Positions 8,639 to 26,496 of a stretch of DNA of 64,000 bases are shown here, one piece after another. The notes beneath the pieces were generated by a model, which was not told the origin of the DNA, did no database searches, and saw only the letters and a program-made list of their open reading frames with translations. A program made the position numbers and the translations under genes. The stretch spans positions 4,402,001 through 4,466,000 of the forward strand of contig NC_013216.1 in the NCBI RefSeq assembly GCF_000024205.1, in the 5' to 3' direction. This DNA is from Desulfofarcimen acetoxidans DSM 771. Its GTDB lineage: Bacteria > Bacillota > Desulfotomaculia > Desulfotomaculales > Desulfofarciminaceae. Each line of letters opens with the position of its first letter. Within the stretch, counting starts at the first letter, position 1.

Positions 8639-8653
8639 GGGGGTGAAGCTTAA

Positions 8654-9112: not shown

Positions 9113-9118
9113 AAACTG

Positions 9119-9523
9119 ATGGATTTTGATCAACTAACTGAAGAGCAGATTCTCCAGAGAATGCTTGATGCTGAAGATGTGCCGGAAAAAGTATACCCGC
9201 TGAATAGGCTAGGTATTCCGGTTAAACTACGGGGTTTGAAGGGACAGAAGGTATTTGCCCTGCGTGAGGAATGTACTTTCCGGTCGGAAAAGCGTGGCAG
9301 GATTCAGGAGAGACTGGATGATGAGGCGTTCCAGTGTAAATTAATTACTGTGGCTACTATATCACCTAAATGGGATCACCCGAAACTGCTGGAGAAATAC
9401 CGGGCCAGCAGTGCGGAAGGTGTGCTTAAGAAGATGCTGCTGGCAGGTGAACTGGCGGCTTTGGGTGACGCGGTTCTGGATCTTTCCGGATTCGGAATTG
9501 AACTGGAAGAAGTAAAAAACTAA
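9119..9523 (+). CDS. xkdN: Tail assembly chaperone, zero-frame product
   Basis: 134 aa. XkdN-like: an N-terminal helix (TEEQILQRMLDAEDVPEKVYPLNRLGIPVKLRGL) and a compact domain. In most long-tailed phages this protein coats the tape measure during assembly and is made in two forms by frameshifting. The last codons are GTA AAA AAC TAA, so the heptamer A_AAA_AAC lies in the zero frame right before the stop, and a -1 frame continues from it (separate entry). Confidence 0.82.
   Translation: MDFDQLTEEQILQRMLDAEDVPEKVYPLNRLGIPVKLRGLKGQKVFALREECTFRSEKRGRIQERLDDEAFQCKLITVATISPKWDHPKLLEKYRASSAEGVLKKMLLAGELAALGDAVLDLSGFGIELEEVKN
9514..9520 (+). promoter_or_regulatory. -1 ribosomal frameshift slippery heptamer A_AAA_AAC
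   Basis: The seven bases at 9514-9520 split as A AAA AAC in the xkdN frame, the classical X_XXY_YYZ form in which both tRNAs can re-pair after a -1 slip. The zero-frame stop TAA follows at once. After slipping, the frame reads CTA ATA AAG CGT and stays open to 9696. Frameshifting at this gene position is a conserved feature of dsDNA phage tail chaperones (gpG/gpGT of lambda). Confidence 0.7.
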
Positions 9524-9696
9524 TAAAGCGTGGAGGGTTGGCCTACCTGCTGCATTTTATGTTCCAAAGGCAGGGGCTGACCCCCGGCCAGTTCTGGCAA
9601 AAGCCCCGCGGGGAGCAAATCTTTCTTATTGAGTCCACGAAACTGGCTATCGAAGAAGAAAACCGGCGCAGAAAGGAGGGGCAGCAAGATGGCTGA
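9520..9696 (+). CDS. -1 frame extension of the tail chaperone (gpGT-like)
   Basis: The -1 frame is open from 9502 to the stop at 9694-9696 and would add 58 residues after the slip, giving a fusion of about 192 aa. It contains LLHFMFQRQGLTPGQFWQKPRGE, the kind of sequence found in second chaperone ORFs of PBSX-like phages. The only possible independent starts, TTG 9538 and ATG 9559, lack well-spaced ribosome sites. It overlaps the tape measure start by 8 bases. Expressed as a fusion is the preferred reading; independent translation is the alternative. Confidence 0.68.
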   Translation, partial: LIKRGGLAYLLHFMFQRQGLTPGQFWQKPRGEQIFLIESTKLAIEEENRRRKEGQQDG

Positions 9697-12600: not shown

Positions 12601-14125
12601 ACCTGCTGCAGCCAGTACCGGAGTGTCTACAGGACAGGGCATGAATACTGGCGCATATCTGGAAAGTCAGGTTTATCAGCCGTTCGCAGACATTGTTAAC
12701 CGGGCAGACTCTTGGGGCCGTAATTTGATGATTAATTTTGCCAACGGCAGGGACAGTGCCGGGATGAGTATGTCTGGTTGGTTAGATAGTCAGGTTTACA
12801 GTCCATTTGCAGGTATTGTGGACCGGGCAACATCCTGGGGTGCAACGCTGATGAATAACTTCGCTGTCGGTATGCAGTCTGTAAAGATTGCCCAGCCAAC
12901 TATTCCAACGCCAAGCATCGCAGCGGCACCTGTAACCGCACATGCTGCCGGGGGCATTCTCATGCGACCTCACTTAGGATTGGTAGCAGAGGCTGGGCCA
13001 GAAGCAATTATTCCGCTATCACCTGCAAGGAGAGGCCCTGCGCTGCAGTTATGGCGTCAGGCTGGAGAATATTTAGGGGTTAGCGCTCATGCGGATGGCG
13101 GATTTTTCGGGAGTATGAAAAATATTGCAATAGGTTCCTGGGGCAAGGTAAAAAGTTTCTTTAGTAACGACAGCGTACAAGGTGTTGGTAATAATGCAGA
13201 ATATGCGGCTGTGGGTCTTGAGTCCACAAGAAGTGGGTATGAAAAATCTGTTCATAAAATTCACAAGAACTATGAGAAAAAAATAGCTAAAACCAGCACG
13301 ATAGAAGATGCGGAAAGGGTCCGCAGAATAGCTCATGAGGCAAAAAACCTATCCATAAGGTTTAGCACAATAACTAAAACTTTATCTAGGGTAGCCGTAC
13401 CTTTAGCTTTATTCGCTTCCGCAGCTGAAGTAGTTGGGTCAAGCGATAAAAAGCAAACACTAATAAAAGAGCTAGGCTCTACATTGGGCTCTATAGCAGG
13501 TGGAGCATTAGCCGGGGCAGCAGGTGGAGCACTTGTTGGGGCCGGACTCTTAACTCCTGTGACAGCACTTGTTGGTGCCGCAGTAGGTGCGGGATTGGGG
13601 GCGTTTGCTGGTCAGGCAGCTGCAAATAATATGTATGGTCGTTTTACAAAACATGCTGCCGGGGGCATTCTCACGCGACCTCATTTAGGATTGGTAGCAG
13701 AGGATGGGCCAGAAGCAATTATTCCGCTGTCACCTGCAAGGAGAGGCCCTGCGCTGCAGTTATGGCGTCAGGCTGGAGAATATTTAGGGGTTAGCGCTCA
13801 TGCGGATGGCGGATTTTTCGGTGCCGTAAAGAGATTTATCAGCAATGACCATGTGCAAAGTGCCGGTAATTATGCACAGAACACTGCACTTGTAGGTAGG
13901 GCTAATGGCTTCGACGGATTTGCAGGGATTACACCGGTACCCGCCCCTATAGATTATTCTGCTCCCCCCCCTTCTGCTGTTAACGCAAAAGGGGATATTA
14001 ATATAACGGTTAACGACATTACTGTAAACTTAACAACAAATGATTTAGACGAAGAAGCAGTTGCCTTGAAAATAGGTTGGCGCGTTCTGAACGAAGTTAA
14101 AAAAGCATATGAAAACAAGGCATAG
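9689..14125 (+). CDS. xkdO: Tail tape measure protein
   Basis: 1478 aa from ATG 9689 (ribosome site AAAGGAGGGG); the frame opens at 9629 but that TTG has no site. Helical and Ala-rich throughout, it sets tail length. Residues about 190-520 carry the conserved TP901-type tape measure region (SFEAQMSSIKALSG.., ALNLATAGELGLADAAEIMSTALNAF). Two Gly/Ala-rich hydrophobic segments (about nt 12410-12580 and 13490-13625) are likely membrane-inserting. A 170-bp segment occurs twice (separate entries), and SQVYxPFAxIVxRAxSWG is also repeated at about nt 12664 and 12790. The size exceeds PBSX XkdO, partly through these duplications. Confidence 0.9.
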   Translation: MAEQEYYRLNLVVEMQDRMRSALGRTRGTVEKFGQSLQRTRQSAQSLNQAKIEPMMRVRDNLTSQVLKADSLIKRLSLETAAPVISAQDKVSSVVSRMNTALNALDKGKFEAVASMKGPLIDEIVKAKASLAALNGVRAGPVAELRGELFGQLTRAMSEARKLDNFAAEPKVTLMDMVTWKARQVGSTLRNMTSRAWTVTIQAKDEVSKVVNRITGTLSSPLGMVGLGAATLGPGILAANSLSKAISFEAQMSSIKALSGLSAKEMAEMQTLAMKMGADTKYNALEAAQGIEELLKSGLTPAAVRAGGLEAALNLATAGELGLADAAEIMSTALNAFKDDAIKPAEAANILAGTANRSATTVAELRYSLAAVSSVAAGIGMIFRDTNSALGLFALNGLKGSDAGTSLKTMLSNLQPRTKEQIELFRKLGMLTADGANQFFTAEGKLKSLDSIAGTLRNSMKDLTDQQRMAYLETMFGSDAIRAANILYKEGADGVKKFNEEMSKVTALDVAKEKMNNAAGAIEQFQGAIETLQISAMLPFLPTIKRLAEGAAEFSEKMMPKITKATDNAAKKVEGFINRLSEDKAFQKMNWGDKIVYVLDQMMAGMDEWVSGDGGKQAEKVFTKLAEIAMRAWITALGGMAKGSVDALLHGNVTGAAGLAMGASLLGGGMVLRTGLGTGKAAYKGVKLAVGKINARRATGAMESVAATEGRVAAIGTITGKSATATENLFNASVPAHVPAGYKPAGKRFWDNIDLTRVESRDKVVSLQNTGRLRQYNELEKVFSKLPGPGTGILSKIKESGQRALQGVGAVKETLTAGMGDIRGRFGLPRLGDNKAAISTTEAVISSNAAAKAAPAAVETASAMAKAGKVFSGIGKMASKAALPLTLAVEAYGISKADDKVKATAQAGGGMAGAWAGGATGAKIGAAIGTVIAPGIGTAIGGALGGIVGGIGGYAVGKWAGGKTVDAARPAPAAASTGVSTGQGMNTGAYLESQVYQPFADIVNRADSWGRNLMINFANGRDSAGMSMSGWLDSQVYSPFAGIVDRATSWGATLMNNFAVGMQSVKIAQPTIPTPSIAAAPVTAHAAGGILMRPHLGLVAEAGPEAIIPLSPARRGPALQLWRQAGEYLGVSAHADGGFFGSMKNIAIGSWGKVKSFFSNDSVQGVGNNAEYAAVGLESTRSGYEKSVHKIHKNYEKKIAKTSTIEDAERVRRIAHEAKNLSIRFSTITKTLSRVAVPLALFASAAEVVGSSDKKQTLIKELGSTLGSIAGGALAGAAGGALVGAGLLTPVTALVGAAVGAGLGAFAGQAAANNMYGRFTKHAAGGILTRPHLGLVAEDGPEAIIPLSPARRGPALQLWRQAGEYLGVSAHADGGFFGAVKRFISNDHVQSAGNYAQNTALVGRANGFDGFAGITPVPAPIDYSAPPPSAVNAKGDINITVNDITVNLTTNDLDEEAVALKIGWRVLNEVKKAYENKA
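12941..13110 (+). repeat. Tape measure internal duplication, copy 1
   Basis: 170 bp encoding HAAGGILMRPHLGLVAEAGP and on to ADGGFFG. It matches 13652-13821 with only four differences by eye. In both copies it follows a Gly-rich hydrophobic segment and precedes a similar SND.VQ..GN.A sequence, so the original duplicated unit was longer. Confidence 0.9.
13652..13821 (+). repeat. Tape measure internal duplication, copy 2
   Basis: Second copy of the 170-bp segment in the tape measure gene, about 98% identical to copy 1. The four changes are single bases (T/C, C/T, C/A, A/G). Such near identity over protein-coding DNA points to a recent duplication or gene conversion. Confidence 0.9.
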
Positions 14126-14136
14126 AGGTGATGCCC

Positions 14137-14790
14137 ATGGACTTCTACCTCATAGACCCCGGCGGGCCGCAGCTCCAACTACCGGTTAATCCGGGAGAAG
14201 TAACCATTCGGCGGGAAAAGCAATACGAAACGACTAATATAATCAACCTGGGAGAAGTAGATTTTCCCACGGGTGAAAAAGTGAAGGAGATTTCCTTCTC
14301 TTCTTTTTTTCCTGTCTATTATGATTCTTCATATTGCAGCTACCAGGATATCCCTGACCCCCAGGAAGCTATGAACCAGTTAACTTCCTGGGCTATGGGA
14401 CGCAGTCCTGTCAGGCTTATTATTACCAATACCATTATTAACGTGCTGATACTTGTGGCTGCTCATATTAGCACTTTCAAAGGCGGAGAACCCGGGGACG
14501 TGTACTATGACCTAACCTGCCGTACCTGGCGGGAAATCAAAGTAAGGACAACAGCAGAAGCAGCTGCCCCCGCAGATATCGGAGGTGTGGCCGCAAATGA
14601 GTCAAGACCAGACCTGAAGCCGGTACCAATGAAAATAAAAGTCAAGCCAGGTGATTCGTTATGGGCAATTGCAAAACTTCAATATGGTGACGGTGGGCGT
14701 TGGCGAGAAATCTATGAGGCAAATAAAGATATCATCGGACCAGATCCAACCTTAATAGCTTCTGGTATACAACTGGTGGTGCCGGCATGA
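14137..14790 (+). CDS. xkdP: LysM-domain baseplate/tail protein
   Basis: 217 aa from ATG 14137, spaced from GAGGTG; GTG 14128 and ATG 14131 are within the ribosome site. The N-terminal part (FYLIDPGGPQLQLPVNPGEVTIRREKQYETTNIINLGEVDF) is the conserved XkdP/gp53-type domain. The C-terminal about 50 residues form a LysM module (KVKPGDSLWAIAKLQYGDGGRW.. EIYEANKDIIG..) that binds peptidoglycan. It connects tube and baseplate hub. Confidence 0.88.
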   Translation: MDFYLIDPGGPQLQLPVNPGEVTIRREKQYETTNIINLGEVDFPTGEKVKEISFSSFFPVYYDSSYCSYQDIPDPQEAMNQLTSWAMGRSPVRLIITNTIINVLILVAAHISTFKGGEPGDVYYDLTCRTWREIKVRTTAEAAAPADIGGVAANESRPDLKPVPMKIKVKPGDSLWAIAKLQYGDGGRWREIYEANKDIIGPDPTLIASGIQLVVPA

Positions 14791-15785
14791 TTAATCCCGG
14801 CCTTAATAAATACGAGTTCGTCCTGGACAATAAATATTTCCTTCGGGAATTGTTAGAGAATGTCACCATGGAGGACTCACTTGATGAGATTGCTTACCGA
14901 GCCACAGTGAAAATGATAATTACATCAGATTTTCCCGGCATTGCGCCGGGGCAGGAAGCCCGAGTTTCCGGGGTTCCATTTGGCGGCAGTAGCATGATCT
15001 ATCTACTGCATCCTGGAGTTGTATGGGAGTGTAATAGCCAAACCAAGGGTCAAAAACACCTCCCTGTCACAATATATGATCGTATGATCTATATTGCAAA
15101 AAGCGAAGATGAGTACCTCTTCTCTGCGGGTCAAACGGCTAGCCAACGGCTGCGGCAATACGCTTCAGATTGGGGAATCCCACTGGGCCAGATAACAGAT
15201 ACAGGCATACCCTTAGCAAAAGCAATATACCGGGCGCAGCCTATTTGGTCAATGATTATGTCAGATTTAAAAGAGACAGTTACTAAAGGTGGCAAAATGT
15301 ATCGGCCTCGAATGACACCTGAAGGCCTTGAACTGCTCGCATTAGGTAGCAATGAAACGGTCTGGGTACTGGAGAAAGAGCAAAATATTGAAGAAATTGG
15401 CCAACTCCGGACATTGGAAGGAGCGGTTACACAGGTTAAGGTTTTAGGTAATGCACCGGAGGACCAGCGGTCCCCGGTTCTTGCCTTAGTTAAAGGTGAG
15501 ACGGATAAGTATGGCACCCTGCAAAAAGTGCTATCCGACAGCAAGCTCACCGATTCCGGTGCTGCCAAGTCTGCAGGTGAAGATTTATTATCGGGAGTAC
15601 AAGAGACATTTACCGTTACAGGTATTGATATAAACGCCATCCGGGCCGGAGATAAGGTGCAATTCAACTCCATGGAACTGCTGGTCGCATCAATTAAGCA
15701 TGAACTGGGAAGTCCCGGGCATATGACAGCAGTATTGGCATCGGAAGATTACATCAGGAGGCGGTACTATGCCCGATCCTTTTAA
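14787..15785 (+). CDS. xkdQ: Baseplate hub protein (gpD/gp27-like)
   Basis: 332 aa, starting four bases inside the previous gene. It resembles XkdQ, the hub protein family related to phage late control D: an N-terminal beta barrel, RLRQYASDWGIPLGQITDTGIPL in the middle, and a second barrel near the end (GIDINAIRAGDKVQFNS). It would form the trimeric hub below the tube. Order P-Q-R-S-T-U is preserved. Confidence 0.85.
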   Translation: MINPGLNKYEFVLDNKYFLRELLENVTMEDSLDEIAYRATVKMIITSDFPGIAPGQEARVSGVPFGGSSMIYLLHPGVVWECNSQTKGQKHLPVTIYDRMIYIAKSEDEYLFSAGQTASQRLRQYASDWGIPLGQITDTGIPLAKAIYRAQPIWSMIMSDLKETVTKGGKMYRPRMTPEGLELLALGSNETVWVLEKEQNIEEIGQLRTLEGAVTQVKVLGNAPEDQRSPVLALVKGETDKYGTLQKVLSDSKLTDSGAAKSAGEDLLSGVQETFTVTGIDINAIRAGDKVQFNSMELLVASIKHELGSPGHMTAVLASEDYIRRRYYARSF

Positions 15786-16185
15786 ACAATTGGCATCTAT
15801 TTTGGAAATGCGCATGGCTGGTCACGTTGCACGGTCCGTCTCCGGAGTGCTGTGCGAGCTTGGAACAATAACAGCTTCAGGGCTTAAGCTTGATAGCTTT
15901 AAACACGAAATCCAGGATTACCTTGTAGCCGACTGGCTGGTGAAGATACACTTCCCGGTTTTTTCTCTTGTTGGCACAGCAACAAGCCCGGTGAATGACC
16001 AGGGTATCGACCTTCCTGGTGCTAAAACTACATCCTTAACCCGCTATGACTTCCTTACCCGTGAGGTGGACGAAGTTCACCTGGAACTTAAAGCGGATAT
16101 TAAACCCGGCGATCGCGTACTGGCAGTACCGGTAAACGGTGGCCAGGACGCAGTTGTTATTGCGAAGGTGATAGCTAATGCCTAA
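15769..16185 (+). CDS. xkdR: DUF2577 baseplate protein
   Basis: 138 aa, overlapping xkdQ by 17 bases. The pattern PFKQLASILEMRMAGHV.., ..VADWLVKIHFP.., ..DIKPGDRVLAVPVNGGQDAVVIAKV is that of XkdR/DUF2577, a small beta-rich baseplate protein that may replace the spike/lysozyme component. No lysozyme domain is present. Confidence 0.82.
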   Translation: MPDPFKQLASILEMRMAGHVARSVSGVLCELGTITASGLKLDSFKHEIQDYLVADWLVKIHFPVFSLVGTATSPVNDQGIDLPGAKTTSLTRYDFLTREVDEVHLELKADIKPGDRVLAVPVNGGQDAVVIAKVIANA

Positions 16186-16636
16186 TTTATTCCCAACAAC
16201 CCAAGTTGAAACAACAACATCAGAATTATCTGAAACCCAATCCAGCCAGGTTAAATTTGGTAAAAGTTGGCGCTTTGATTTTGAAGCCGGTGAATTTGTT
16301 TTAACCCCTACCGGTAAAGTGACAGAAAACCAGGGCATTGAGGCTTGGTTGGAGTGGTGTAATAAAGCGCTGATGACTGTAAGATATCGTTTCTTGATAT
16401 ACAGTCGTAATCATGGCCAGGAGTTCGAAGAACTTATTTCCCGGCAGCTGTCGCAACCTGCTAATGAAAGCGAGATTACACGGATTGCCACCGAGTGCCT
16501 CAAGGTTGATCCCAGGACAAAATTAGTGGGCAATTTTAAGTTCAACTGGGTAGAAGATCGGTGTTATTTCACCTGTGAAGTAACCAATATCCTGGGCGAA
16601 TCCGGTACTGTTAACGGAAACGTGGTGATTAACTGA
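16178..16636 (+). CDS. xkdS: DUF2634 baseplate wedge protein
   Basis: 152 aa. It has the gp25-like fold pattern expected for XkdS/DUF2634: GKSWRFDFEAGEFVLTPTGKV near the N-terminus, ALMTVRYRFLIYSRNHGQEF in the middle, and a C-terminal beta hairpin. Starts eight bases inside xkdR and ends on the first base of xkdT, so translation of R-S-T is coupled. Confidence 0.85.
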   Translation: MPNLFPTTQVETTTSELSETQSSQVKFGKSWRFDFEAGEFVLTPTGKVTENQGIEAWLEWCNKALMTVRYRFLIYSRNHGQEFEELISRQLSQPANESEITRIATECLKVDPRTKLVGNFKFNWVEDRCYFTCEVTNILGESGTVNGNVVIN

Positions 16637-17766
16637 TGGCTACCCTACCCGATTTTTTAACAGATCAAACTGAGGAAGTTATTTTGCAACGCATGTTAAG
16701 CAATGTCCCAGCCGATTTGGATACAAGCGAAGGCAGTTATATTTGGGACTCATTAAGTCCCGTTGCTATTGAGCTTGCTCTTGCCTACATCCAGGCGCAA
16801 GAAATCCTAAAAAGAGGTTTTATTGCAACAACATACGGGGAATACCTGAAGCTTAAGGCTGCTGAAGATGGTATTGAGACTCGATCTGCCGTTAGTGCTA
16901 CGGGCACAATAGAAAAAGGAAATCCACTTAAGATTGTAGGTACCCCTGGAGCTAATTTCTCAGTAGGCATTGCTGTGGCTACGCCGGCAGATCTTGCTAC
17001 CGGTACGGTATCAATAGAGTTTACAACTATTGGTGAGGTAACCTTAGATGTAAACGGGATAGGTTATGCTGATATTAAAGCAGTGGTGCCTGGTAAATCC
17101 GGTAACGTTTCGGTTGGTGCCATTAGTATTTTAACAAAACCAATATCAGGCATTAAAAGTGTTACCAATGAAAAACCTACAACAGGTGGTTTAGATGAGG
17201 AAGATAAAGAGTTGCTGAGAGAGCGCATCTTAAAAGAATGCCAAAAAGACGAAGGAGACGGCAACTCAGCTGATTATGAAATATGGGCTAAAGAAGTGGC
17301 TGGCGTTGGCAATGTATTAGTTGAGCCACTCTGGCAGGGAGAGGGCACTGTTAGGGTTGTAATATTGGACCCTGATGGAAGAGATGCGCCCAAAGCTACC
17401 GTTGACGCAGTGCAAAATCACCTTGATCCCGGCAGTCTAGGACTGGGCGAAGGAAAAGCCCCTATCGGTGCACGCGTCACAGTTGTGACAGCTGAAGTAA
17501 TAACCATAAACGCCACAATTCCAGGGTTAACAGTTGGAGCCGGGTATACACTCGATCAAGGAAAAACCAATGCAGAAATTTCCCTTAGTAACTATTTTAA
17601 AAAGATTAATCCAGGTGGAATCATCAGAACGAAGAAGGCCGAGGCGGAAATTACAAACGCTCTGGGAGTGCTTGACATGGGCGATCTATTACTTGACGGA
17701 AAAAGAGATAATATTGTTCTTGGAATTACCCAATTAGCCGCCCTGGGGAGTGTGATTTATGTATGA
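16636..17766 (+). CDS. xkdT: Baseplate J family protein
   Basis: 376 aa. The sequence has the BaseplateJ/gp47 layout: N-terminal helices with LDTSEGSYIWDSLSPVAIELA, a Gly-rich beta domain (AVVPGKSGNVSVGAISILTKPISGI), and TGGLDEEDKELLRERIL. Baseplate J proteins form the inner wedge ring. Overlaps the next gene by four bases. Confidence 0.92.
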   Translation: MATLPDFLTDQTEEVILQRMLSNVPADLDTSEGSYIWDSLSPVAIELALAYIQAQEILKRGFIATTYGEYLKLKAAEDGIETRSAVSATGTIEKGNPLKIVGTPGANFSVGIAVATPADLATGTVSIEFTTIGEVTLDVNGIGYADIKAVVPGKSGNVSVGAISILTKPISGIKSVTNEKPTTGGLDEEDKELLRERILKECQKDEGDGNSADYEIWAKEVAGVGNVLVEPLWQGEGTVRVVILDPDGRDAPKATVDAVQNHLDPGSLGLGEGKAPIGARVTVVTAEVITINATIPGLTVGAGYTLDQGKTNAEISLSNYFKKINPGGIIRTKKAEAEITNALGVLDMGDLLLDGKRDNIVLGITQLAALGSVIYV

Positions 17767-18704
17767 TAGCTAAAGATAGGATGTTAACCTACCTACCTCC
17801 CTACTATGGGGAATCCCGTATTATGAACACCATCATAGAAGCTCAGGGCATAGAAATTGATAAATTTAACTATGCTCTTAATGAGACATTAAATCAATTT
17901 TTTACATTAACTGCTACCTGGGGATTAACTTTTTATGAGGAGAAGTATGGCTTACCTGTTAATGAAAGCCTTAATTTGCAGACAAGAAGACAATTGGTTT
18001 TAGCTAAAAAGCGTAGTGGAAGAACCAGTCTATTAACAATGTTACAGGCGGTTGAGCCAACGATTACACTTATTCGGGGTGGGCTGAGATTACCTTTTAT
18101 AGTCTATTCGGAGGAAGATATTTATAATTTTGGTCCCTTGATTGTTCTTTTGGAACGTCACAGACCGGCGCACCTTGGCTATCTATTTCACCTCATCCCC
18201 GATATTGAAGAATCCGGATATTACGTTTATGCCAACCACAAGATTAGAGGCAAGGTTGACTTAGAACTTAAAGTTGGTACGGCTATGACTGGGCGCTGGC
18301 CCCGATGGAACACGCCCGGTCAACTGAAAGCGGGCCATGTGTTCACCCGGGCAGCTGCCCTTACTGGCCTTTACATTTTTCCCCATATCGGAGTGAGCGT
18401 TGGCAGTGTGGCCAGGGCGGCAGTTGTCCCCGTAGCTGGGCATCGTGTCGGCGTCTGCGTCTTCCCTCGGTCTGGCCCGAATACTACCGGTATAATACCG
18501 ACAGTCAGCAGCCCTGGTGCCCTGGCGCGGGCCGCAGCAAAGGCCGGATGCGCGGCTCACACCGGCGCCTGCCTGTTCCCGCTGGCTGGGGTGAGTGTGG
18601 GCGGTGTGGCATCGCAGCCGACAACACTGGCCGGTAGCATCACAACCGGCCATGGCCACATGTATCCCTGCGGCACTATCCACGCAGGAGAGGAGGCAGC
18701 ATAA
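17763..18704 (+). CDS. xkdU: XkdU-like baseplate protein fused to a fibre-like tail
   Basis: 313 aa. Residues 1 to about 165 resemble DUF2313/XkdU (tail protein I), including MLTYLPPYYGESRIMNTIIEAQGIEID. The rest is unlike XkdU: Ala/Gly/His/Pro-rich with repeating ..FP..GVSVG.VA.. elements (FPHIGVSVGSVA, FPLAGVSVGGVA) and a final PCGTIHAGEEAA. The last motif recurs at the end of the next protein as PCGTVHAGEEVK. The C-terminal part therefore looks like a repeat-built fibre or adhesin extension added to the wedge protein. Local base composition is clearly more G+C-rich. Confidence 0.72.
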   Translation: MIAKDRMLTYLPPYYGESRIMNTIIEAQGIEIDKFNYALNETLNQFFTLTATWGLTFYEEKYGLPVNESLNLQTRRQLVLAKKRSGRTSLLTMLQAVEPTITLIRGGLRLPFIVYSEEDIYNFGPLIVLLERHRPAHLGYLFHLIPDIEESGYYVYANHKIRGKVDLELKVGTAMTGRWPRWNTPGQLKAGHVFTRAAALTGLYIFPHIGVSVGSVARAAVVPVAGHRVGVCVFPRSGPNTTGIIPTVSSPGALARAAAKAGCAAHTGACLFPLAGVSVGGVASQPTTLAGSITTGHGHMYPCGTIHAGEEAA

Positions 18705-18958
18705 TGTTTATACATGCCCTTTATGCCGGTACAGTACCTTGGAACACCAGTACCGGCAGCTTGTTTTCGGCGACCATCAGGGCATCCCCTGTCTTGCTGG
18801 CCGGAGAAGCTGATCCACCCATGACGGGGACATTTCCTTTTGTTTCCATAGCTGGCAGCTTAGCGCGGAAAAACGTGGATTCCTCCGGCTCTGCTTCATC
18901 CGGTTATTGCCAAACAGTTCCGTGTGGCACTGTCCATGCGGGAGAGGAGGTAAAATAA
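18704..18958 (+). CDS. Small fibre-associated protein sharing a C-terminal motif with the upstream gene
   Basis: 84 aa. Start overlaps the previous stop (TAATG). No domain family recognised. The C-terminus PCGTVHAGEEVK copies the end of the preceding protein (PCGTIHAGEEAA), and FVSIAGSLARKN resembles the GVSVGSVARAA repeat there. It is probably a duplicated and diverged part of the same fibre repeat system. Confidence 0.6.
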   Translation: MFIHALYAGTVPWNTSTGSLFSATIRASPVLLAGEADPPMTGTFPFVSIAGSLARKNVDSSGSASSGYCQTVPCGTVHAGEEVK

Positions 18959-19257
18959 TGTTCACAAACTACACATTGCAAACGCTGGCTAATACCTTGG
19001 ACAAACTTGCCGTCAGCGCCGACTACACCATCGGCGGAGTGACAAGGCCGGCGAAGATCAGGCGCTCCATTGTATCCGGCACAACGGTGAGAAAGCATAT
19101 ATATCTCACCCAGAATGACCCCACCGGCACCGTGACAAGGGCAAGGTTGTTGGGCAGCGATGGCCAGGTGGTGGCCCAGAGAACGGATCCCCAGCTGCAC
19201 GAGGCCGGGAAAGGACTGCTACTGGAGTTTCGATTCACTATTACAGAGGAGGTGTAA
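18958..19257 (+). CDS. Phage tail/fibre accessory protein of unknown function
   Basis: 99 aa from ATG 18958, which overlaps the previous stop and follows GAGAGGAGG; the longer frame from 18907 is antisense to nothing useful and lacks a site. The sequence has strands such as HIYLTQNDPTGTVTRARLLGSDGQVV and ends with LLLEFRFTITEEV, suggesting a beta-sandwich. Tail-fibre region context only. Confidence 0.6.
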   Translation: MFTNYTLQTLANTLDKLAVSADYTIGGVTRPAKIRRSIVSGTTVRKHIYLTQNDPTGTVTRARLLGSDGQVVAQRTDPQLHEAGKGLLLEFRFTITEEV

Positions 19258-19260
19258 GTT

Positions 19261-19770
19261 TTGTCAATAGCAGACTTGAGAAATCAATCATATGAGCCCC
19301 TGGAATGGGAGGATCGGGTAGTGGATTCCCAAACCGGTGAGGTGCTTGTCGAAGGCACGCCGGTGAATGAGGTCAACCTAAATAACATGGAAGCCGGCAT
19401 CCTTCGTGCTCTCTATGATTTAGGTATTGCCAATGCCGAAAGTATGCAAGCTGTCCATGCTGTTGCCGGTGAACTGGATAGGTACAGAAATCAACGCCTG
19501 CTGCAGGGACAAGCTACCATAACCGGTACTGGTGAAAAGTATTTCACAAGTGAGTACCCATACGTGTTAGTGAGTATGCCAGTTAAATCATATGCACAGC
19601 TAAATTCGCCAAACTACGATGTTCAGCTGACTATTTTAAACGGTGACATGGGAGCTGCGGGATATTTAATCGCTTATGACAAGGCGCAAAATGGCTTTAA
19701 GGTAAAAATGACTGGCTCAGCTGGGTTCGTTACTTTTATGTGGACGTTAATTAATCCAACAATTATGTAG
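19261..19770 (+). CDS. Tail fibre-like protein
   Basis: 169 aa from TTG 19261 with GAGGAGGTG upstream. The first part (LRNQSYEPLEWEDRVVDSQ.., NEVNLNNMEAGILRALYDLGIANAESM) resembles N-terminal attachment regions of Bacillota phage fibre proteins, with a helix that could trimerise. The second part is beta-rich and ends LINPTIM. It lies between baseplate genes and the DGR target, where receptor-binding structures are encoded. Confidence 0.55.
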   Translation: MSIADLRNQSYEPLEWEDRVVDSQTGEVLVEGTPVNEVNLNNMEAGILRALYDLGIANAESMQAVHAVAGELDRYRNQRLLQGQATITGTGEKYFTSEYPYVLVSMPVKSYAQLNSPNYDVQLTILNGDMGAAGYLIAYDKAQNGFKVKMTGSAGFVTFMWTLINPTIM

Positions 19771-19782
19771 GAGGTTAAAAAT

Positions 19783-20160
19783 ATGATTGTATGTAATGTT
19801 AATTCTGGACCCAAGGCCGATTATTCTTTGTTAGGCACTGTTTTAACTTTAAGTGTGCCAGAGGTAGGTAGTGTATCGGTAGATTTGCAGGAACGTCAGG
19901 GAGAAAAAAAGCGCACAGTAGATTTTTGCCTGGACAAGGACTATCAGCGAGTAGCGGAAGGTGTCGGCAGTTGGTACGTGGCCACTGTGATGGTGCCAGC
20001 TTCAGAAAAAGAAATGCAAGACACGGATCAGGTCGATGAAGAGGGTAACCAGGTCCAGGAATTAGTAGTTCTACCATTAAACATGTCAAAAGTGGAACTG
20101 CATCTATGGGGCTTACCCGGCACCATTAGCGATAGGCTAGAACAGGAAGGTGGTATATAA
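19783..20160 (+). CDS. Phage protein of unknown function before the DGR target
   Basis: 125 aa, with GGAGG upstream and stop overlapping the next start (TAATG), so tightly coupled to the DGR target gene. Contains strands and an acidic loop (MQDTDQVDEEGNQVQELVVLPL). No known family. Coupling suggests an attachment or chaperone partner for the variable protein; this is inference. Confidence 0.6.
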   Translation: MIVCNVNSGPKADYSLLGTVLTLSVPEVGSVSVDLQERQGEKKRTVDFCLDKDYQRVAEGVGSWYVATVMVPASEKEMQDTDQVDEEGNQVQELVVLPLNMSKVELHLWGLPGTISDRLEQEGGI

Positions 20161-21152
20161 TGTCATTCGTATTTTCGATCAAGGACACATACAGGCAGGC
20201 TGTAGAGGCAATGACTGGCGGCAAAAATACGGTAATGTATGATGATAAAGGCAACCCCAGCATTATGGTTTGCATTCCAAAAGGTAAAATCAGTGACGTA
20301 ATCAGCGGTGGCCCGAATGTGGTGCACCCAGCATTCCTGGTAGATGGCGCAGAGAAGTCAGAAATATGGGTAAGTAAGTATCTCAACATAATCCATGACG
20401 GTCGGGCGTACAGCATCCCTGGACAAAAGGCAGCGCACAGCATGAGTTTTGATTCTGCCAGAGCAGCTTGCTTTGCGAAAGGTCCAGGTTGGCATCTATT
20501 TACCAATGCGGAATGGTCATACATCGCTCATTGGTGCATAGCAAATAATTATCAGCCTCGCGGCAACGATAATTATGGCGCATCTTATGAAGCCCCATGG
20601 GAGCACGGAGTGAAAGAAAGCGATGATAAAACGTTGGTAGGTACGGGCCCGGTGACGTGGAACCACGACTCTTCGCATGGAGGAATAGCGGATTTGAGGG
20701 GAAATTTAATCGAGTGGGTTGACGGCCTAAAGCTTATTGATGGCCGCATCTATGTTCATAACAACAATAATTTTAATACCGGAAATGCAGAAGGGAACAT
20801 AATTGGGTGGGTAGACGCAGGTAAATACATGGATATTATTGGTAATACAATAACATTAAATGACCAGTTAACCGCAGCTAGTGGAACAAAATACCATGCA
20901 TTTAAGAGTATGGCTGTGGCAAATGGGGTAACCGTACCCGATCTTTTGCGATATCTAGCAATTTATCCCCCTGTGGATGTTTCTAAAATAAAAGATGACC
21001 GAATTTATGTGGATGTAACCGGAGAGCGGTTGCCGTTTCGTGGTGGCGCTCGGTCGCTTGGGGCCGGTGCTGGCCTACTGTGCTTGGACCTGAACAGCAC
21101 CCGTACGACCGCGTACACGTTTCGTGGCTTCCGCTCCGCTTATGTTTTGTAA
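20160..21152 (+). CDS. DGR variable target protein (C-type-lectin / FGE-like fold)
   Basis: 330 aa. Residues about 60-330 show features of the formylglycine-generating-enzyme-like C-type lectin fold used by DGR targets: FTNAEWSYIAHWC, HGGIADLRGNLIEWVDG, and a terminal GERLPFRGGARS..FRGFRSAYVL. The last about 39 residues lie in the variable repeat. Positions that correspond to Asn codons in the template read F, A, L, D, S, T, Y and F here, and a template Tyr reads Cys, as expected after adenine mutagenesis. The protein sits at the end of the tail operon, so it is probably the receptor-binding tip. Conserved residues between variable sites are unchanged. Confidence 0.88.
   Translation: MSFVFSIKDTYRQAVEAMTGGKNTVMYDDKGNPSIMVCIPKGKISDVISGGPNVVHPAFLVDGAEKSEIWVSKYLNIIHDGRAYSIPGQKAAHSMSFDSARAACFAKGPGWHLFTNAEWSYIAHWCIANNYQPRGNDNYGASYEAPWEHGVKESDDKTLVGTGPVTWNHDSSHGGIADLRGNLIEWVDGLKLIDGRIYVHNNNNFNTGNAEGNIIGWVDAGKYMDIIGNTITLNDQLTAASGTKYHAFKSMAVANGVTVPDLLRYLAIYPPVDVSKIKDDRIYVDVTGERLPFRGGARSLGAGAGLLCLDLNSTRTTAYTFRGFRSAYVL
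21026..21141 (+). repeat. DGR variable repeat (VR)
   Basis: 116 bp at the 3' end of the target gene, co-linear without gaps with the template at 21585-21700. I count 16 mismatches, and every one is an adenine in the template (A to T, G or C). The final 20 bases, with no template adenine, are identical. This adenine-only pattern is diagnostic of DGR mutagenic retrohoming. Confidence 0.96.
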
Positions 21153-21178
21153 TCTGAATTCTGATTTCTGGATATCTG

Positions 21179-21202
21179 ACGTGTGCCCGATAGGGCACAC
21201 GT
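21179..21202 (+). promoter_or_regulatory. DGR hairpin/cruciform downstream of VR, GATA loop
   Basis: ACGTGTGCCC-GATA-GGGCACACGT: a perfect 10-bp stem with a 4-base loop, 37 bp after VR. Similar stem-loops with short conserved tetraloops just 3' of VR are known to stimulate target recognition in several phage DGRs. It could also act as a terminator, but no T-tract follows (GTAAACCC). Confidence 0.85.
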
Positions 21203-21220
21203 AAACCCAACGGAGGTACC

Positions 21221-21562
21221 ATGGAAGATTTAAAGATTTTGCAAAAGACTCACGATATGATTTTGTATGGTAATATTTGTTTAAAACAGTTCCCCAGATA
21301 TGAAAAGCATGTCATGGCCGCTAATATCAGGGAAAGTATGTATAGGATGCTAAGCTTAATCATTCAAGCTAATAAAAAATACTACAAGAAAACGACATTA
21401 CAGGATATAGACGTTGAGCTGGATATATTAAGAACTTTTATCCGGCTCGCAGTCGATAAGGAACTTAAATATCTATCAGTAAGTAAATATGAAAACTGGA
21501 GTAAGATGCTCAACGAGATTGGTCGCATGTTAGGCGGTTGGATAAAATCAGCAAAGAAATAA
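21221..21562 (+). CDS. avd: DGR accessory variability determinant (Avd)
   Basis: 113 aa, start ATG after ACGGAGGTACC. The size, high Lys/Arg content and four helical segments (LQKTHDMILYGNICLKQFPRYEK.., ANIRESMYRMLSLIIQAN.., DIDVELDILRTFIRLAVDKELKYLS.., WSKMLNEIGRMLGGWIKS) match Avd, a pentameric four-helix bundle that binds template RNA and the reverse transcriptase and is needed for retrohoming. It lies between VR hairpin and TR, as in the Bordetella phage DGR order. Confidence 0.92.
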   Translation: MEDLKILQKTHDMILYGNICLKQFPRYEKHVMAANIRESMYRMLSLIIQANKKYYKKTTLQDIDVELDILRTFIRLAVDKELKYLSVSKYENWSKMLNEIGRMLGGWIKSAKK

Positions 21563-21584
21563 TTTTTACGGGGATAGGCCGTTC

Positions 21585-21700
21585 GCGGTTGCCGAATCGT
21601 GGTGGCAATCGGTCGAATGGGGCCGATGCTGGCCTACTGTACTTGAACCTGAACAACACCCGAACGAACACGAACACGAATCGTGGCTTCCGCTCCGCTT
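21585..21700 (+). repeat. DGR template repeat (TR)
   Basis: 116-bp non-coding template. Read in the target's frame it is rich in AAT/AAC codons (about eight Asn), which places adenines at first and second codon positions for maximal amino-acid change. About 26 adenines by hand count, 16 of them altered in VR. TR-RNA presumably extends through the 21563-21879 region between avd and the RT gene; the remainder of that stretch contains no open gene on either strand that I would support. Confidence 0.96.
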
Positions 21701-21879
21701 CGCCCCCATAGTCAGAAGTTACTGCCTCAAGGGGTGGTATCCAGTACCGGGGGACAAAGGGGCCTATCTCCCTGCCGCGATCTATTTTGGACCGGCAAAA
21801 AACTATATTGCCGGGAAGACAGTTAGTAGCCATTGGGCGAAGAGTGTTACGCCCGGCCCCTCCTTAGGGGGTAGAAAAG

Positions 21880-22989
21880 GTGAAGCATTATAGTAATTTA
21901 TACTCCAGTATTTGTAGTTTTGAGGGCTTATACCAATCCTACTTAAAGGCAAGAAAAAGAAAGAGATATAGAAATGAAGTTTTAAAGTATACCGCTAATC
22001 TTGGAGAAAACTTAATTCAAGCCGAAGAAGAGTTAATATCTAAATCTTACAGAGTTAGTCCGTATCGGAAATCCTTTGTGTACGAACCTAAGAAACGACT
22101 TGTTATGGCGTTGCCTTTTGGGGATCGGATAGTGCAATGGTCTGTATATAGGACACTAAACCCGCTGCTAAATAAACGCTATATAAGCCACTCTTATGCT
22201 TGTCGTACGGGCTATGGTTCTCATAGGGCTGTTAAGCAACTTCAATATTGGCTGAGATACCTGGAAAGACGCCATGGGAGAATTTATGTCCTCAAAGCAG
22301 ACATGACAAAGTATTTTTACCGAGTGGATCATGACATTATAATGAATATTCTGGAGCGCATTATAGGGGATTATGATTTGATATGGCTTTTAGAAGAAAT
22401 TGTCCGGTGTGAACATACCTGGTTTGGTCTCCCATTGGATGCGGAGGGCTTTGAATGTGAACTGACAGGTGAGGTCGGTATACCGATTGGGAATTTAACC
22501 AGTCAGATGATTGCTAATCTATATTTGAATGAGCTGGATCAGTATGCCAAGCATAACCTGCAAATTAAATACTATATGCGCTACATGGACGACGTCTTAA
22601 TACTTCACAATGATAAAAAGTATCTTTGGCATATCAAGGAAGAGATTGAGGAGTTTCTAGATCGCAACCTAAGGCTTAAGTTAAATAATAAAACCTGCGT
22701 CAGAACCAATACCCAAGGAATTGACTGGATTGGGTACCGAGTTTGGCCTACTCACGTTAAGCTAAGAAAATCTACAGCCCAAAGAATGAAGGCACGTTTA
22801 AAGTACCTGCAGGGGCTTTATGCTGTAGGTGAAGCTGATTTTAAGGAAGTTAACGCCACTGTGCAAAGTTATTTGGGTATTCTGAAGCACTGTGATAGTT
22901 ATAATTTACGAGAAAAGTTATTTGGTGATCTGACTTGGGCGCGTGATAGCACGCAGCAGTCACAATTACAAGGAGAGATTTTGTTATGA
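21880..22989 (+). CDS. DGR reverse transcriptase
   Basis: 369 aa. RT domain with YMDD at residues 235-238, a catalytic Asp in YVLKADMTKYF (about 141), and IGNLTSQ at about 203-209. The last motif (IGxxxSQ instead of QGxxxSP) separates DGR RTs from retron and group II intron RTs. It makes error-prone cDNA from TR RNA, mis-incorporating opposite adenines, together with Avd. The preceding GGGGGTAGAAAAGGTGAAGC region supplies the ribosome site. No maturase or other fused domain. Confidence 0.96.
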   Translation: MKHYSNLYSSICSFEGLYQSYLKARKRKRYRNEVLKYTANLGENLIQAEEELISKSYRVSPYRKSFVYEPKKRLVMALPFGDRIVQWSVYRTLNPLLNKRYISHSYACRTGYGSHRAVKQLQYWLRYLERRHGRIYVLKADMTKYFYRVDHDIIMNILERIIGDYDLIWLLEEIVRCEHTWFGLPLDAEGFECELTGEVGIPIGNLTSQMIANLYLNELDQYAKHNLQIKYYMRYMDDVLILHNDKKYLWHIKEEIEEFLDRNLRLKLNNKTCVRTNTQGIDWIGYRVWPTHVKLRKSTAQRMKARLKYLQGLYAVGEADFKEVNATVQSYLGILKHCDSYNLREKLFGDLTWARDSTQQSQLQGEILL

Positions 22990-23144
22990 ATAATAAACTA
23001 AAAAACTTATTGGATTTGTTGGAGTTAATAAACCAGCAGGAAAGGATAATTATAAAGCAAAACGAAGTTATAGCAAAACTTATTAACGATACTATGGAAC
23101 AAGAGAATATGATTAATGAATTGATGCGAGATGCTGTGAGTTAG
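22986..23144 (+). CDS. 52-aa coiled-coil protein coupled to the DGR RT
   Basis: The ATG at 22986 overlaps the RT stop (ATGA), so it is translationally coupled. The sequence begins MNNKLKNLLDLLELINQQE and is a single amphipathic helix rich in Leu, Ile, Asn, Gln and Glu. No family recognised. It could be a fibre-associated or trimerisation peptide or an RT accessory. It is the last gene before the terminator. Confidence 0.65.
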   Translation: MNNKLKNLLDLLELINQQERIIIKQNEVIAKLINDTMEQENMINELMRDAVS

Positions 23145-23224: not shown

Positions 23225-24073
23225 TTAAAAAATTTTTCGCAGTCTATCCGCAAATTTTTCGCAGTCTATCCGCAACGCCACAACGTCAATACATAACTTA
23301 TTTGATTTATGAATGTCACCATAATGAAGATAACAGATACCTTCGTCCATATGTAATTCATTTCTTGACGCTGAAAGTCCCCCTTCAAATTTAAATACAT
23401 CTCCCAACCGCACTTCTTGCCACTCATCTGTGAAGCTGGAAAGGCGTTTTTTGCCTGTAAGCAGGTTCTGCATCAGCCACTTTTTCTGGTTCTTTTTCTC
23501 TAAGATAAGCTTTTCTTTTAATTCGATAGCCTTATCCCAAGTAGTGAAAATTTTAACTATTTTTTGTTGTTCTTCAATGTTTGAAGGTATGCAGACCAAA
23601 ATTTTATTAAATTCATCCTGTCCAAGTGTTTTATTTCTCCCTGCTCCACCAGGTGAGGCTAATTCAAGAAGATTTTTACCAAACGGAGTTAAAAAAAACT
23701 TGAGTAAATAATTTAGTTCTATATTTCCTTTTGACTTCCACATCGGAAATCTGTGCGAAGCAATCATTCCTTTTTCTCGGGCGGTAGTAATGGCAACGGC
23801 TTGCTCCCATGCAAAAACAATATTAATAATTAAGCAGTCCGCCTCAATCCAAAAAACGGATTTGTTCCCCAAATCGCTTCCTTTAATGGGTTCTTTATAA
23901 AATAGTCCTTTGCCATGAGAACGAATACCAATTTCTTGATACTCACAATTAGCAATAACCTTAACAGGCATTCTAACTCTTTCAAGCAAATTACCTAATT
24001 TTGCAATTACCCAATCGTTCGGGTATTTTTCACATCTTTCTCTTATTATGGAAAACCTACTATTCCTTTTCAC
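23225..24073 (-). CDS. hsdS: Type I restriction specificity subunit HsdS, 3'-truncated
   Basis: About 282 aa from GTG 24073 (AGGTGAGAG upstream); a TTG at 24088 is an alternative. HsdS proteins have two target-recognition domains (TRDs) and are usually about 400 aa. Here TRD1 and the central conserved helix (IEEQQKIVKIFTTWDKAIELKEKLI..) are complete and the second repeat begins normally (DEWQEVRLGDVFKFEGGLSASRNELH.. LHYGDIHK). It then runs into unrelated residues encoded by a 22-bp tandem repeat and stops. Most of TRD2 and the C-terminal helix are lost. One-and-a-bit TRDs can still work as dimers in rare cases, but this is more likely an element-edge truncation. Confidence 0.82.
   Translation of the reverse strand: MKRNSRFSIIRERCEKYPNDWVIAKLGNLLERVRMPVKVIANCEYQEIGIRSHGKGLFYKEPIKGSDLGNKSVFWIEADCLIINIVFAWEQAVAITTAREKGMIASHRFPMWKSKGNIELNYLLKFFLTPFGKNLLELASPGGAGRNKTLGQDEFNKILVCIPSNIEEQQKIVKIFTTWDKAIELKEKLILEKKNQKKWLMQNLLTGKKRLSSFTDEWQEVRLGDVFKFEGGLSASRNELHMDEGICYLHYGDIHKSNKLCIDVVALRIDCEKFADRLRKIF
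23230..23273. repeat. Perfect 22-bp tandem duplication at the hsdS truncation point
   Basis: Two adjacent identical 22-bp copies (23230-23251 and 23252-23273), each beginning AAATTTTTCGCAGTC. They encode the aberrant last residues of the truncated HsdS, at the boundary with prophage-side DNA. Could be an attachment-site remnant or a repair scar. Confidence 0.85.
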
Positions 24074-24203
24074 AACTCTCACCTGCAATCAATGTTTCCT
24101 GCCCCTCTTCTTAGACCAAACTTTGACAATAATTGTAAATTTTTTAAAACCAAACGGTGAGCCAAGCACCCCGGCTAAAATCATTCTTTATCGCTTGCTT
24201 CTT

Positions 24204-24314
24204 TTATTTTTTATTGCTTACTGGATGAATCGCCGGGTGGCAAGAATAAATAGGTGATTCCTCTTTTAAACATATACCCAACAAATCATCATGGAAAATT
24301 TTTAAATTGCTCAT
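24204..24314 (-). CDS. 36-aa ORF coupled to hsdM, possible gene remnant
   Basis: The start overlaps the hsdM stop (ATGA). The first residues MSNLKIFHDDLLG resemble the beginning of phage Bro-N/antirepressor or Fic-type accessory genes inserted in type I RM loci, but the frame stops after 36 codons. From there to the hsdS start (24074) I see no gene. Most likely the stub of a decayed accessory gene. Confidence 0.35.
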   Translation of the reverse strand: MSNLKIFHDDLLGICLKEESPIYSCHPAIHPVSNKK

Positions 24315-25894
24315 AGTCCCAACTCCTTAAGATATTCGGCCATCTGTGCTTCCACTTCGGCAAGCTCCTTTTGGATATTGGCTATATTGTTTTTTACCTC
24401 TTCTATATTCACCAGGTCTTCTTCCTCAAAAGTATCAACATACCGAGGGATATTAAGATTATATTCGTTGGCTTTTATCTCATCCAAGGTTGCCACATGA
24501 GCTAGTTTTATAATATCCGAACGAGTCTCATAAGCTTTTACAATATCCTCTATGTGTTTTGTTTCCAACCTGTTCTGATTTTTATCCTTCCTGTAGCGAA
24601 GATGGCCCTTTTCATCTTTGCCGGACGCGTCAATAAAAAGCACATCATTACGGTTGCGGTTTTTCTTAAAAACCAGGATACAGGCCGGAATACCGGTACC
24701 GTAAAACAGGTTGGCAGGAAGACCAATAACTGCGTCCAATAGATTTCTCTCAATTACAGCCTGCCTTATCCTTCCTTCGGACGCACCTCTAAACAAAACA
24801 CCATGGGGAGCAACGGCGGCAATCCTGCCACCGCTTTTAAGACTGGCTATCATATGCAGCAAAAATGCCCAATCACCTTTGCTGGCAGGGGGAACTCCCC
24901 AGTCAAAGCGGTGAAATTTATCAAGGGATGCTTCCATTTTAAATTGTTTGCCTTTGCCGGTCATTTCGCCACCGGTATTAAATCCCGCCGCCCATTTATC
25001 CTGAGAAAAAGGCATATTGGCTACGATAACATCAAACTGCATAAGATTTCCATCGGGATCCAAATGCATGGGGTTAGCCAGTGAGTCACCCCAGGCAATC
25101 CTGGCATCCATTATTTCATGAAGAAACATATTCATTTTGGCCATAGACCAGGAAGACCCGTTCATTTCCTGCCCATAGAGGGCCAGGGTCTTTATATTGC
25201 CATTTTCCTTTTCAATGGCTTTTTTTCCGGTTCTGATGAGCAGAGATCCGGAACCGCACGTCGGATCGTACATGGTATCGCTTATTTTGGGATTGACGAT
25301 GCGTGCTATCAGCTCGGATACCTCAGACGGGGTAAAAAAAGATCCGGCTTTTTTACCTGCCTGTCTGGCAAACTCTCCGATCATATATTCATATGCATCG
25401 CCTATGGTATCAGCCGCCACCTTGCCTTCCTCGGGCTCAATAGCGGAAGGACGCAAATCAAGAGGTTCAAAATCCTCAAGCAATTCCCTTAACCTGGTGT
25501 TTTTTTGATTATGATTGCCCAGCATGGCTTCGCTGTTAAAATCAATATTTCTAAATACCCCGGTAAACAGTGAGGGATTATCGTCTTCTATCCCACGTAA
25601 AGCAATATTGATGAGTTCCCCCAGGTTGTCGTTATACCTGTTTTGATAAAGCCAGGAAAACCTGTGTTTTTCCTTAATGGCAAAGGGAAGTCTGTTTATC
25701 GCTCTTTCTGCCCTCACCGGGTCATTATATTTTTGCTCTAGCTTTTCTACTTTTTCCAGATAAGAATCACTCAGATACTTTACAAAAAGCATAGGCAAAA
25801 TATAGTCTTTATAATTGGCCGCATCTATAGCTCCTCTGAAAGTATTAGCACCTCTCCAAATAGCTGCCTCGATGTCTTTCCTCGTAGTTGCCAT
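24311..25894 (-). CDS. hsdM: Type I restriction-modification DNA methyltransferase HsdM
   Basis: 527 aa, the normal HsdM length. N-terminal HsdM_N helices (RGAIDAANYKDYILPMLFVKYLSD) and an N6-adenine methylase domain with GSFFTPSEV, the SAM-binding DPTCGSGSLLI and the catalytic NPPF-type motif present as ANMPFS. The Met in place of Pro in this motif (N-M-P-F) is within the accepted range for type I enzymes. C-terminal coiled coil for HsdS contact. Start follows GGAGGAAGTATA. Intact, but no hsdR is in the window, so at best it acts as a modification enzyme here. Confidence 0.93.
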   Translation of the reverse strand: MATTRKDIEAAIWRGANTFRGAIDAANYKDYILPMLFVKYLSDSYLEKVEKLEQKYNDPVRAERAINRLPFAIKEKHRFSWLYQNRYNDNLGELINIALRGIEDDNPSLFTGVFRNIDFNSEAMLGNHNQKNTRLRELLEDFEPLDLRPSAIEPEEGKVAADTIGDAYEYMIGEFARQAGKKAGSFFTPSEVSELIARIVNPKISDTMYDPTCGSGSLLIRTGKKAIEKENGNIKTLALYGQEMNGSSWSMAKMNMFLHEIMDARIAWGDSLANPMHLDPDGNLMQFDVIVANMPFSQDKWAAGFNTGGEMTGKGKQFKMEASLDKFHRFDWGVPPASKGDWAFLLHMIASLKSGGRIAAVAPHGVLFRGASEGRIRQAVIERNLLDAVIGLPANLFYGTGIPACILVFKKNRNRNDVLFIDASGKDEKGHLRYRKDKNQNRLETKHIEDIVKAYETRSDIIKLAHVATLDEIKANEYNLNIPRYVDTFEEEDLVNIEEVKNNIANIQKELAEVEAQMAEYLKELGL

Positions 25895-26496
25895 TATACT
25901 TCCTCCTTAGTACCGACCGCAATACTGTTTATTATTGCGACCATAAGCCTTTGATCTTCTTCAATCATATTTGCAAGCAGTTTTCTTCGTTTTTTATACA
26001 GCAGCCACATCCGACCAATTGCCTTTTGCTTATCGTATTCTATGGAGGAAATATCTAAATCCGCCAATGACTTTGCAGAAACTGATCTAATGGCTGCAAC
26101 AGAGCCGACAATATTGCTGTTCAGCCAATTCAAACCATGGCTCTCCAGCAGGCAGGCTATATAGGCAGGGCAATAGTCATTACGCACACGTATAACAAAG
26201 AGATTGCTTGAAAAGACCGTGTTTATCATATCCTCCATTATAAGCGTTGCAATATCCGGATTCAGGCGTTTCAGTAAAATATCATTCTTTCTCACGAAAT
26301 AGTTTTCATCAACAGAAACATATCTTCTTATTTCCGAGACACTATATATATCATTAAATATTCCTAAATGGTTCGGCTGAATAAAGTTATATCTTAACGC
26401 ACCCACGGCTTTTGCTTTTTCCGGCAGCCTGGTATCAGGCATACCATTTAATATATTGGCTATCTCCTTAAGTTTTACCTTTCTTGTTGTCGTCAC
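25894..26496 (-). CDS. Half-size type I specificity-like subunit (single TRD)
   Basis: 200 aa from GTG 26496 with AAGGGAGTG upstream; the stop touches the hsdM start. The pattern (VKLKEIANILNGMPDTRLPEK.., an IRRYVSVDENYFVRKNDILLKR strand region, and a terminal helix pair with KQKAIGRMWLLYKKRRKLLANMI) is that of one HsdS TRD plus one conserved spacer. Single-TRD subunits upstream of hsdM occur in some type I loci. It might pair with the truncated HsdS or act as a homodimer. Confidence 0.7.
   Translation of the reverse strand: MTTTRKVKLKEIANILNGMPDTRLPEKAKAVGALRYNFIQPNHLGIFNDIYSVSEIRRYVSVDENYFVRKNDILLKRLNPDIATLIMEDMINTVFSSNLFVIRVRNDYCPAYIACLLESHGLNWLNSNIVGSVAAIRSVSAKSLADLDISSIEYDKQKAIGRMWLLYKKRRKLLANMIEEDQRLMVAIINSIAVGTKEEV

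Follow-up and report, generated by a model that had tools for sequence, protein, structure and literature searches.

An Avd-type diversity-generating retroelement with an RT-14 spacer RNA at the right end of a Mu-like prophage of Desulfofarcimen acetoxidans DSM 771

The diversity-generating retroelement (DGR) of Desulfofarcimen acetoxidans DSM 771 is already known. Figure 5 of Guo et al. 2011 (PMC3240598) includes this strain among the phage-related DGRs with GRNA hairpins, the hairpin being placed after VR; the passages on it show the hairpin only and do not describe the Mu-like prophage, the hsdS insertion, the RNA, or the target fold. Since we found only one DGR copy in the genome, the entry in that figure can be equated with the element analyzed here.

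Four described systems are close to this element. (i) The DGR of Bordetella phage BPP-1 has the same order (target-avd-TR-spacer-RT, where RT is the reverse transcriptase), adenine mutagenesis, a GRNA hairpin, a C-type-lectin-fold (CLec) target that ends the tail operon, and a structured spacer RNA. However, its target Mtd has only a distantly related fold (TM 0.33-0.37), its spacer matches the Rfam family Phage_DGR (RF03022) and not RT-14, the family of the DSM 771 spacer, and its att site lies at a tRNA gene, whereas the DSM 771 prophage has Mu-type ends. (ii) TaqVP, from a prophage DGR of Thermus aquaticus (PDB 5vf4; PMC6328139), is homologous to the DSM 771 target over its full length at about 35% identity, and both proteins carry VR at the extreme C terminus; TaqVP has 385 residues and the target 330, with shorter insert regions. 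(iii) In Bacillus phage BalMu-1 (NC_030945), which is Mu-type by name, target, avd, TR, and RT lie near the right end, as in DSM 771; its RT is 51% identical to that of DSM 771, and both elements contain an RT-14 RNA. In BalMu-1, a holin and an endolysin gene follow RT, whereas the DSM 771 prophage ends 138 bp past an open reading frame (ORF) of 52 codons. (iv) The Hankyphage of Bacteroides (PMC6199706, PMC12135933) is, like the phage described here, a Mu-like transposable DGR phage with 5-bp duplications, and some of its lysogens differ in VR alone. It belongs to another phylum, and its target has no similarity to characterized proteins; the same survey reported homology to the T. aquaticus protein for 57 targets (PMC6199706).

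The genome of DSM 771, published under the name Desulfotomaculum (now Desulfofarcimen) acetoxidans (PMC3035247), is a single contig of 4,545,624 bp, and the stretch that we analyzed, called the window, comprises 64,000 nucleotides (positions 4402001-4466000). An earlier note, made from the letters of the window alone, had described a complete DGR at positions 20160-23144, with a target gene containing VR, a hairpin, avd, TR, and RT in this order. We recovered this arrangement in full, and all its ORFs were confirmed (Table 1). We are highly confident that the locus is a standard Avd-type DGR that ends a 41.5-kb Mu-like prophage at its right end and is predicted to rewrite a putative receptor-binding-type tail protein with the TaqVP fold.

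Table 1. Features of the DGR and of its carrier. Positions are those of the window; those marked L055 are numbered in a separate stretch of the same genome.
Feature	Position	Strand	Remarks
hsdR	L055:6163-9267		neighbor of the interrupted hsdS
hsdS, 3' part	L055:9267-9773		Methylase_S match
Target-site duplication, left copy	L055:9769-9773		ACGTC, 5 bp
Prophage left end	L055:9774		genome position 4383773; TGTGATC...
MuA	L055:15034-17055		upstream of the window; DDE_2, Mu-transpos_C
MuB-like ATPase	L055:17245-18183		upstream of the window
Contractile-tail operon	7190-20160	+	5' of target; sheath, tube, tape measure, baseplate J, Gp48, small tail genes; PHROG and Pfam
Target gene	20160-21152	+	330 aa; TaqVP-type C-type-lectin-fold variable protein; phrog_2889, E = 1.9e-107
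VR	21026-21141	+	encodes target residues 290-327; gapless match to TR
IMH-like VR 3' end	21122-21141	+	TCGTGGCTTCCGCTCCGCTT; identical to TR; putative role, after BPP-1
Hairpin/cruciform	21179-21202	+	ACGTGTGCCC-GATA-GGGCACACGT; 10-bp stem, GATA (GRNA) loop
avd	21221-21562	+	113 aa; accessory variability determinant; Pfam bAvd PF22296, E = 2.1e-34; PHROG Avd, E = 2.3e-44
TR	21585-21700	+	gapless match to VR
Structured spacer RNA	21699-21856	+	Rfam RT-14, RF02921; 71.6 bits, cutoff 48.1
DGR reverse transcriptase	21880-22989	+	369 aa; GTG start; RVT_1, E = 1.7e-20; phrog_1423, E = 2.1e-130
52-aa ORF	22986-23144	+	coiled-coil-like; no family in Pfam or PHROG; 4-bp overlap with RT stop
Tandem 22-bp repeats (two)	23230-23273		transposase-end-like; prophage right end
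Prophage last base	23282		...CGCCACA
Target-site duplication, right copy	23283-23287		ACGTC, 5 bp
hsdS, 5' part	23283-24088	-	split by prophage; Methylase_S match
hsdM	24311-25894		neighbor of the interrupted hsdS; type I restriction system

The two repeats align over 116 bp without gaps, and, as had been noted before, their differences are confined to adenines of TR: TR has 26 adenines among its 116 bases, and all 16 mismatches fall on them (hypergeometric P = 3.1e-13), with 7 A>T, 6 A>G, and 3 A>C changes. At the other ten TR adenines, VR has A as well, and the repeats are identical at all 90 non-A sites. The impression that mainly Asn codons are replaced was likewise borne out, with eight of the nine AAY codons of TR altered in VR (N293F, N297A, N300L, N310D, N313S, N317T, N319Y, and N321F); the further changes are D303G, Y308C, T318A, and a silent one at R315. 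No substitution of a TR adenine can create a stop codon, and the repeat could encode about 10^14 different proteins. The GC-rich hairpin lies 37 nt 3' of VR and folds, as DNA, with a z score of -4.2 relative to shuffled sequences. Elsewhere in the genome we found no further DGR copy, second VR, or other target, and the repertoire is thus one TR and one VR.

Both proteins of the core are readily recognized. In addition to the Avd accessory protein, a DGR-type RT adjoins TR; it contains the motifs IGNLTSQ and YMDD, in agreement with the earlier reading, and matches PDB 8ub7 (E = 2.1e-43), which we take to be the BPP-1 bRT-Avd-RNA complex. The earlier note had also counted the 52-aa ORF as a component of the DGR, and this we reject. 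It probably lies outside the DGR core, because only two homologues were found among the related loci fetched, one after RT (L116) and one as the tail of a fused RT-ORF (L046), and none was found in phage records. In the other relatives, the position after RT is occupied, by eye, by holin-like or XhlA-like genes or by nothing, and the most plausible reading of the ORF is a small gene located where the tail and lysis regions meet.

The target was expected to adopt a lectin fold, and its structure prediction bears this out. The protein matches TaqVP with E values of 7.6e-58 (phmmer) and 8.7e-100 (profile), and an AlphaFold2 model based on a 60-sequence alignment (pLDDT 94.3) superimposes on TaqVP with a TM score of 0.94 in Foldseek, Mtd and TvpA being far behind. 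VR thus falls in the C-terminal ligand-binding region of a TaqVP-type CLec protein. Among 60 homologues, the residues encoded by codons with TR adenines have a mean column entropy of 2.7 bits; the value is 0.7 bits for the remaining VR residues and 1.1 bits for residues 1-189. By analogy with TaqVP, up to 15 variable residues would be surface exposed on the ligand-binding face. No tail-attachment domain was recognized in the target, and its operon position suggests a putative location at the tail tip or in the virion. Homology points to a putative receptor-binding protein, and its diversification may switch the host range of the phage.

The gap between TR and RT, for which the earlier note gave no feature, is filled by an RNA of the Rfam family RT-14, a name that conveys no function. 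An alignment of 17 spacers contains 31 consensus pairs, 22 of which show compensatory changes, and the DGR thus possesses a structured template-RNA spacer 3' of TR. The start of RT-14 coincides with the TR 3' end in the loci L007 and L046, in BalMu-1, and in genomes from the class and the phylum, mostly to within 1 to 2 nt and to within a few nucleotides wherever TR is located. All 20 matches of the genome search were ≤3 kb from avd and a DGR RT, and the 10 RT-14-bearing genomes of the class were all among the top 12 by strength of the Avd match. Two genomes (G067 and G095) have the gene order avd-RT-RT-14; since TR of G067 is found between RT and RT-14, so that both TR and RT-14 are 3' of RT, the RNA follows TR and not RT. 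Because it starts at the TR 3' end in every DGR checked, RT-14 almost certainly forms the 3' spacer of the template RNA of DGRs in Bacillota phages and is the counterpart of the Phage_DGR RNA of BPP-1. By eye, the models of both families finish with a hairpin that contains an AGUA/GAA internal loop. The BPP-1 spacer recruits RT-Avd and supplies the adenine that primes the cDNA (PMC12875486); RT-14 would by analogy do the same here. We found no literature that names RF02921 or that mentions RT-14 together with diversity-generating elements, the defining paper of the RT-n RNAs lying outside the coverage of this search, and we see about even chances that the identification of RT-14 as a DGR template-RNA spacer has not been stated before.

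Evidence on activity came from relatives, 79 further viral contigs having been found to encode homologues of the target. In 47 distinct TR/VR pairs, 578 of 1,129 TR-A sites differed as compared to 25 of 4,220 other sites, a ratio that is not unbiased, since the detector favors adenine differences. The hairpin loop is GRNA in 32 of the 34 relatives with a detectable hairpin. Pairwise comparison of near-identical phages is free of the adenine bias of the detector. (i) L169 and L172, 99.5% identical over 9 kb, differ at 12 of 24 TR-A sites of VR and at 0 of its 83 remaining sites; the counts are 0 of 107 for TR and 32 of 8,868 elsewhere. (ii) For L166 and L167, the corresponding numbers are 13/22, 2/91, 0/113, and 1/5,440. 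(iii) For L134 and L140, they are 20/26, 0/90, 0/116, and 375/8,685. In phages with 99.5 to 99.7% overall identity, about half of the adenine sites of VR thus differ and TR is invariant; this is adenine-specific polymorphism of the kind that the earlier note had proposed to look for. RT-14 is also present in L169, L172, and L167. In more diverged pairs, the non-A sites of VR drift jointly with TR, as repeated copying from TR to VR predicts. Because near-identical phages differ at the TR-A sites of VR and not in TR, the DGR family is active, with recent mutagenic homing in close relatives that carry the same cassette; the DSM 771 copy itself can, from its sequence, simply be called intact. A search for a second isolate of the same phage in the databases returned only the DSM 771 genome. 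One might suppose that the cassette is a fossil that no longer works in DSM 771 and is retained in a resident prophage, given that only one strain of the species was found sequenced and that VR retains ten of the TR adenines. We consider this unlikely: the ORFs are all open, the RT motifs, the RNA, and the hairpin are intact, and a long-dead element would have gathered differences at the non-A sites, where VR and TR agree throughout.

The carrier of the standard Avd-type DGR is an apparently intact Mu-like transposable prophage of 41,510 bp, although it may have defects that are invisible in the sequence. It has TG...CA ends, and the 5-bp duplication is found on both sides within one hsdS frame; when the prophage was removed in silico and the flanks were joined, a single uninterrupted HsdS frame resulted, and we conclude that the phage inserted in hsdS, with hsdM on one side and hsdR on the other, in a type I restriction system. 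A MuA-type transposase and a MuB-type ATPase (PF02914, PF09299, and AAA_22) are present. The left part, upstream of the window, contains, in order, a repressor-like gene, MuA, the MuB-like ATPase, an amidase, a terminase-like gene, and a portal gene; head morphogenesis, decoration, contractile-tail, and baseplate genes follow within the window, and the prophage also has an endolysin gene. The terminase-like protein has no Pfam match and was assigned by position, size, and synteny. No real match to the prophage was found among the spacers of the CRISPR array at 49140-50435. The earlier note had left open a tailocin, and the contractile-tail genes directly 5' of the DGR would suit a host-domesticated tailocin with a diversified fiber. 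Such an element would have tail genes but no head, packaging, or replication genes, and this is not what we found; we regard it as very improbable, because terminase-like, portal, head morphogenesis, head decoration, endolysin, MuA, MuB, and repressor-like genes are present, together with both exact transposon-type ends and the 5-bp duplication. Although two-copy repeats of such a length arise by chance duplication, the idea that the TR/VR pair is an ordinary degenerate duplication unconnected to reverse transcription has a negligible probability and is refuted by the adenine pattern (P = 3e-13), which recurs in 47 relatives, with avd, RT, and the spacer RNA flanking the repeats.

The biochemical steps of the Avd-type DGR can be proposed by analogy with BPP-1. 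A transcript through avd, TR, and the RT-14 spacer would be bound by the RT-Avd complex. Priming within the spacer would start cDNA synthesis on the TR template, with random bases incorporated opposite adenines. The cDNA would then replace VR, the 3'-terminal repeat of the target gene, presumably guided by the identical VR 3' end and the downstream hairpin. The predicted outcome is a receptor-binding-type tail protein with the TaqVP fold, whose ligand-binding face has up to 15 variable residues.

The DSM 771 element is thus a sound, previously catalogued case of a mechanism that is well understood and represents a known route to new hosts rather than a new type of system. Added to prior knowledge are the ends of the prophage, its insertion into hsdS, the assignment of the target to the TaqVP type, and the link between RT-14 and DGRs. 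(i) With the prophage boundaries known to the base, the DGR can be assigned clearly to a Mu-like phage whose insertion disrupted a restriction system of its host. (ii) The putative receptor-binding protein now has a solved homologue, TaqVP. (iii) The RT-14 covariance model offers a direct route to the template RNA, and hence to TR and its 3' boundary, in this clade of DGRs.

The structured spacer RNA RT-14 (Rfam RF02921), whose Rfam name carries no DGR label, was found, across the window and the loci L061 to L068 and L091 to L100, at the 3' end of the DGR template repeat in every case in which a TR could be located. Another Rfam family, RT-18, lies immediately upstream of the RT of a second DGR type, in which TR and VR are spaced by 218 bp.

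Several relatives had unusual layouts. At L101 (G326:C59), two tandem TR-like/RT-14 units are located between avd and the RT; the second TR has few AAY codons and a VR-like appearance, as if homing had occurred into a duplicated TR. The RT-14 DGRs at L060 and L059 (genomes G067 and G095) are ordered avd-RT-TR-spacer, with the RNA 3' of the RT. Since 17 TR/VR mismatches in G067 are at non-A positions versus 10 at A, this VR may be decayed. In L046, the RT ORF is extended at its C-terminus by a segment that shares homology with the window's 52-aa ORF, suggesting either a fusion or a frameshift.

Features in the window and at related loci
Feature	Location	Strand
RT-14	window 21699-21856	
RT-18	L049 8908-8989	
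RT ORF with tail	L046 4618-5841	
Tandem TR-like/RT-14 units	L101 7286-7395 and about 7870-7989	
hsdS, type I restriction-modification, two parts	window 23283-24088 and L055 9267-9773	- (both)
200-aa ORF between hsdM and HNH-like gene	window 25894-26496	-
CRISPR array, 20 repeats, two variants	window 49140-50435	

The CRISPR repeats contain GGTAGG in the first six and GATAGG in the last fourteen copies, and comparison of the array's spacers with the Mu-like prophage gave no genuine match.

This prophage lies between the two parts of hsdS (L055 is the stretch upstream of the window). The flanking hsdM and hsdR both have open reading frames. The host has probably lost the type I specificity of the split hsdS upon lysogeny. 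The 200-aa ORF reads like a half specificity subunit.
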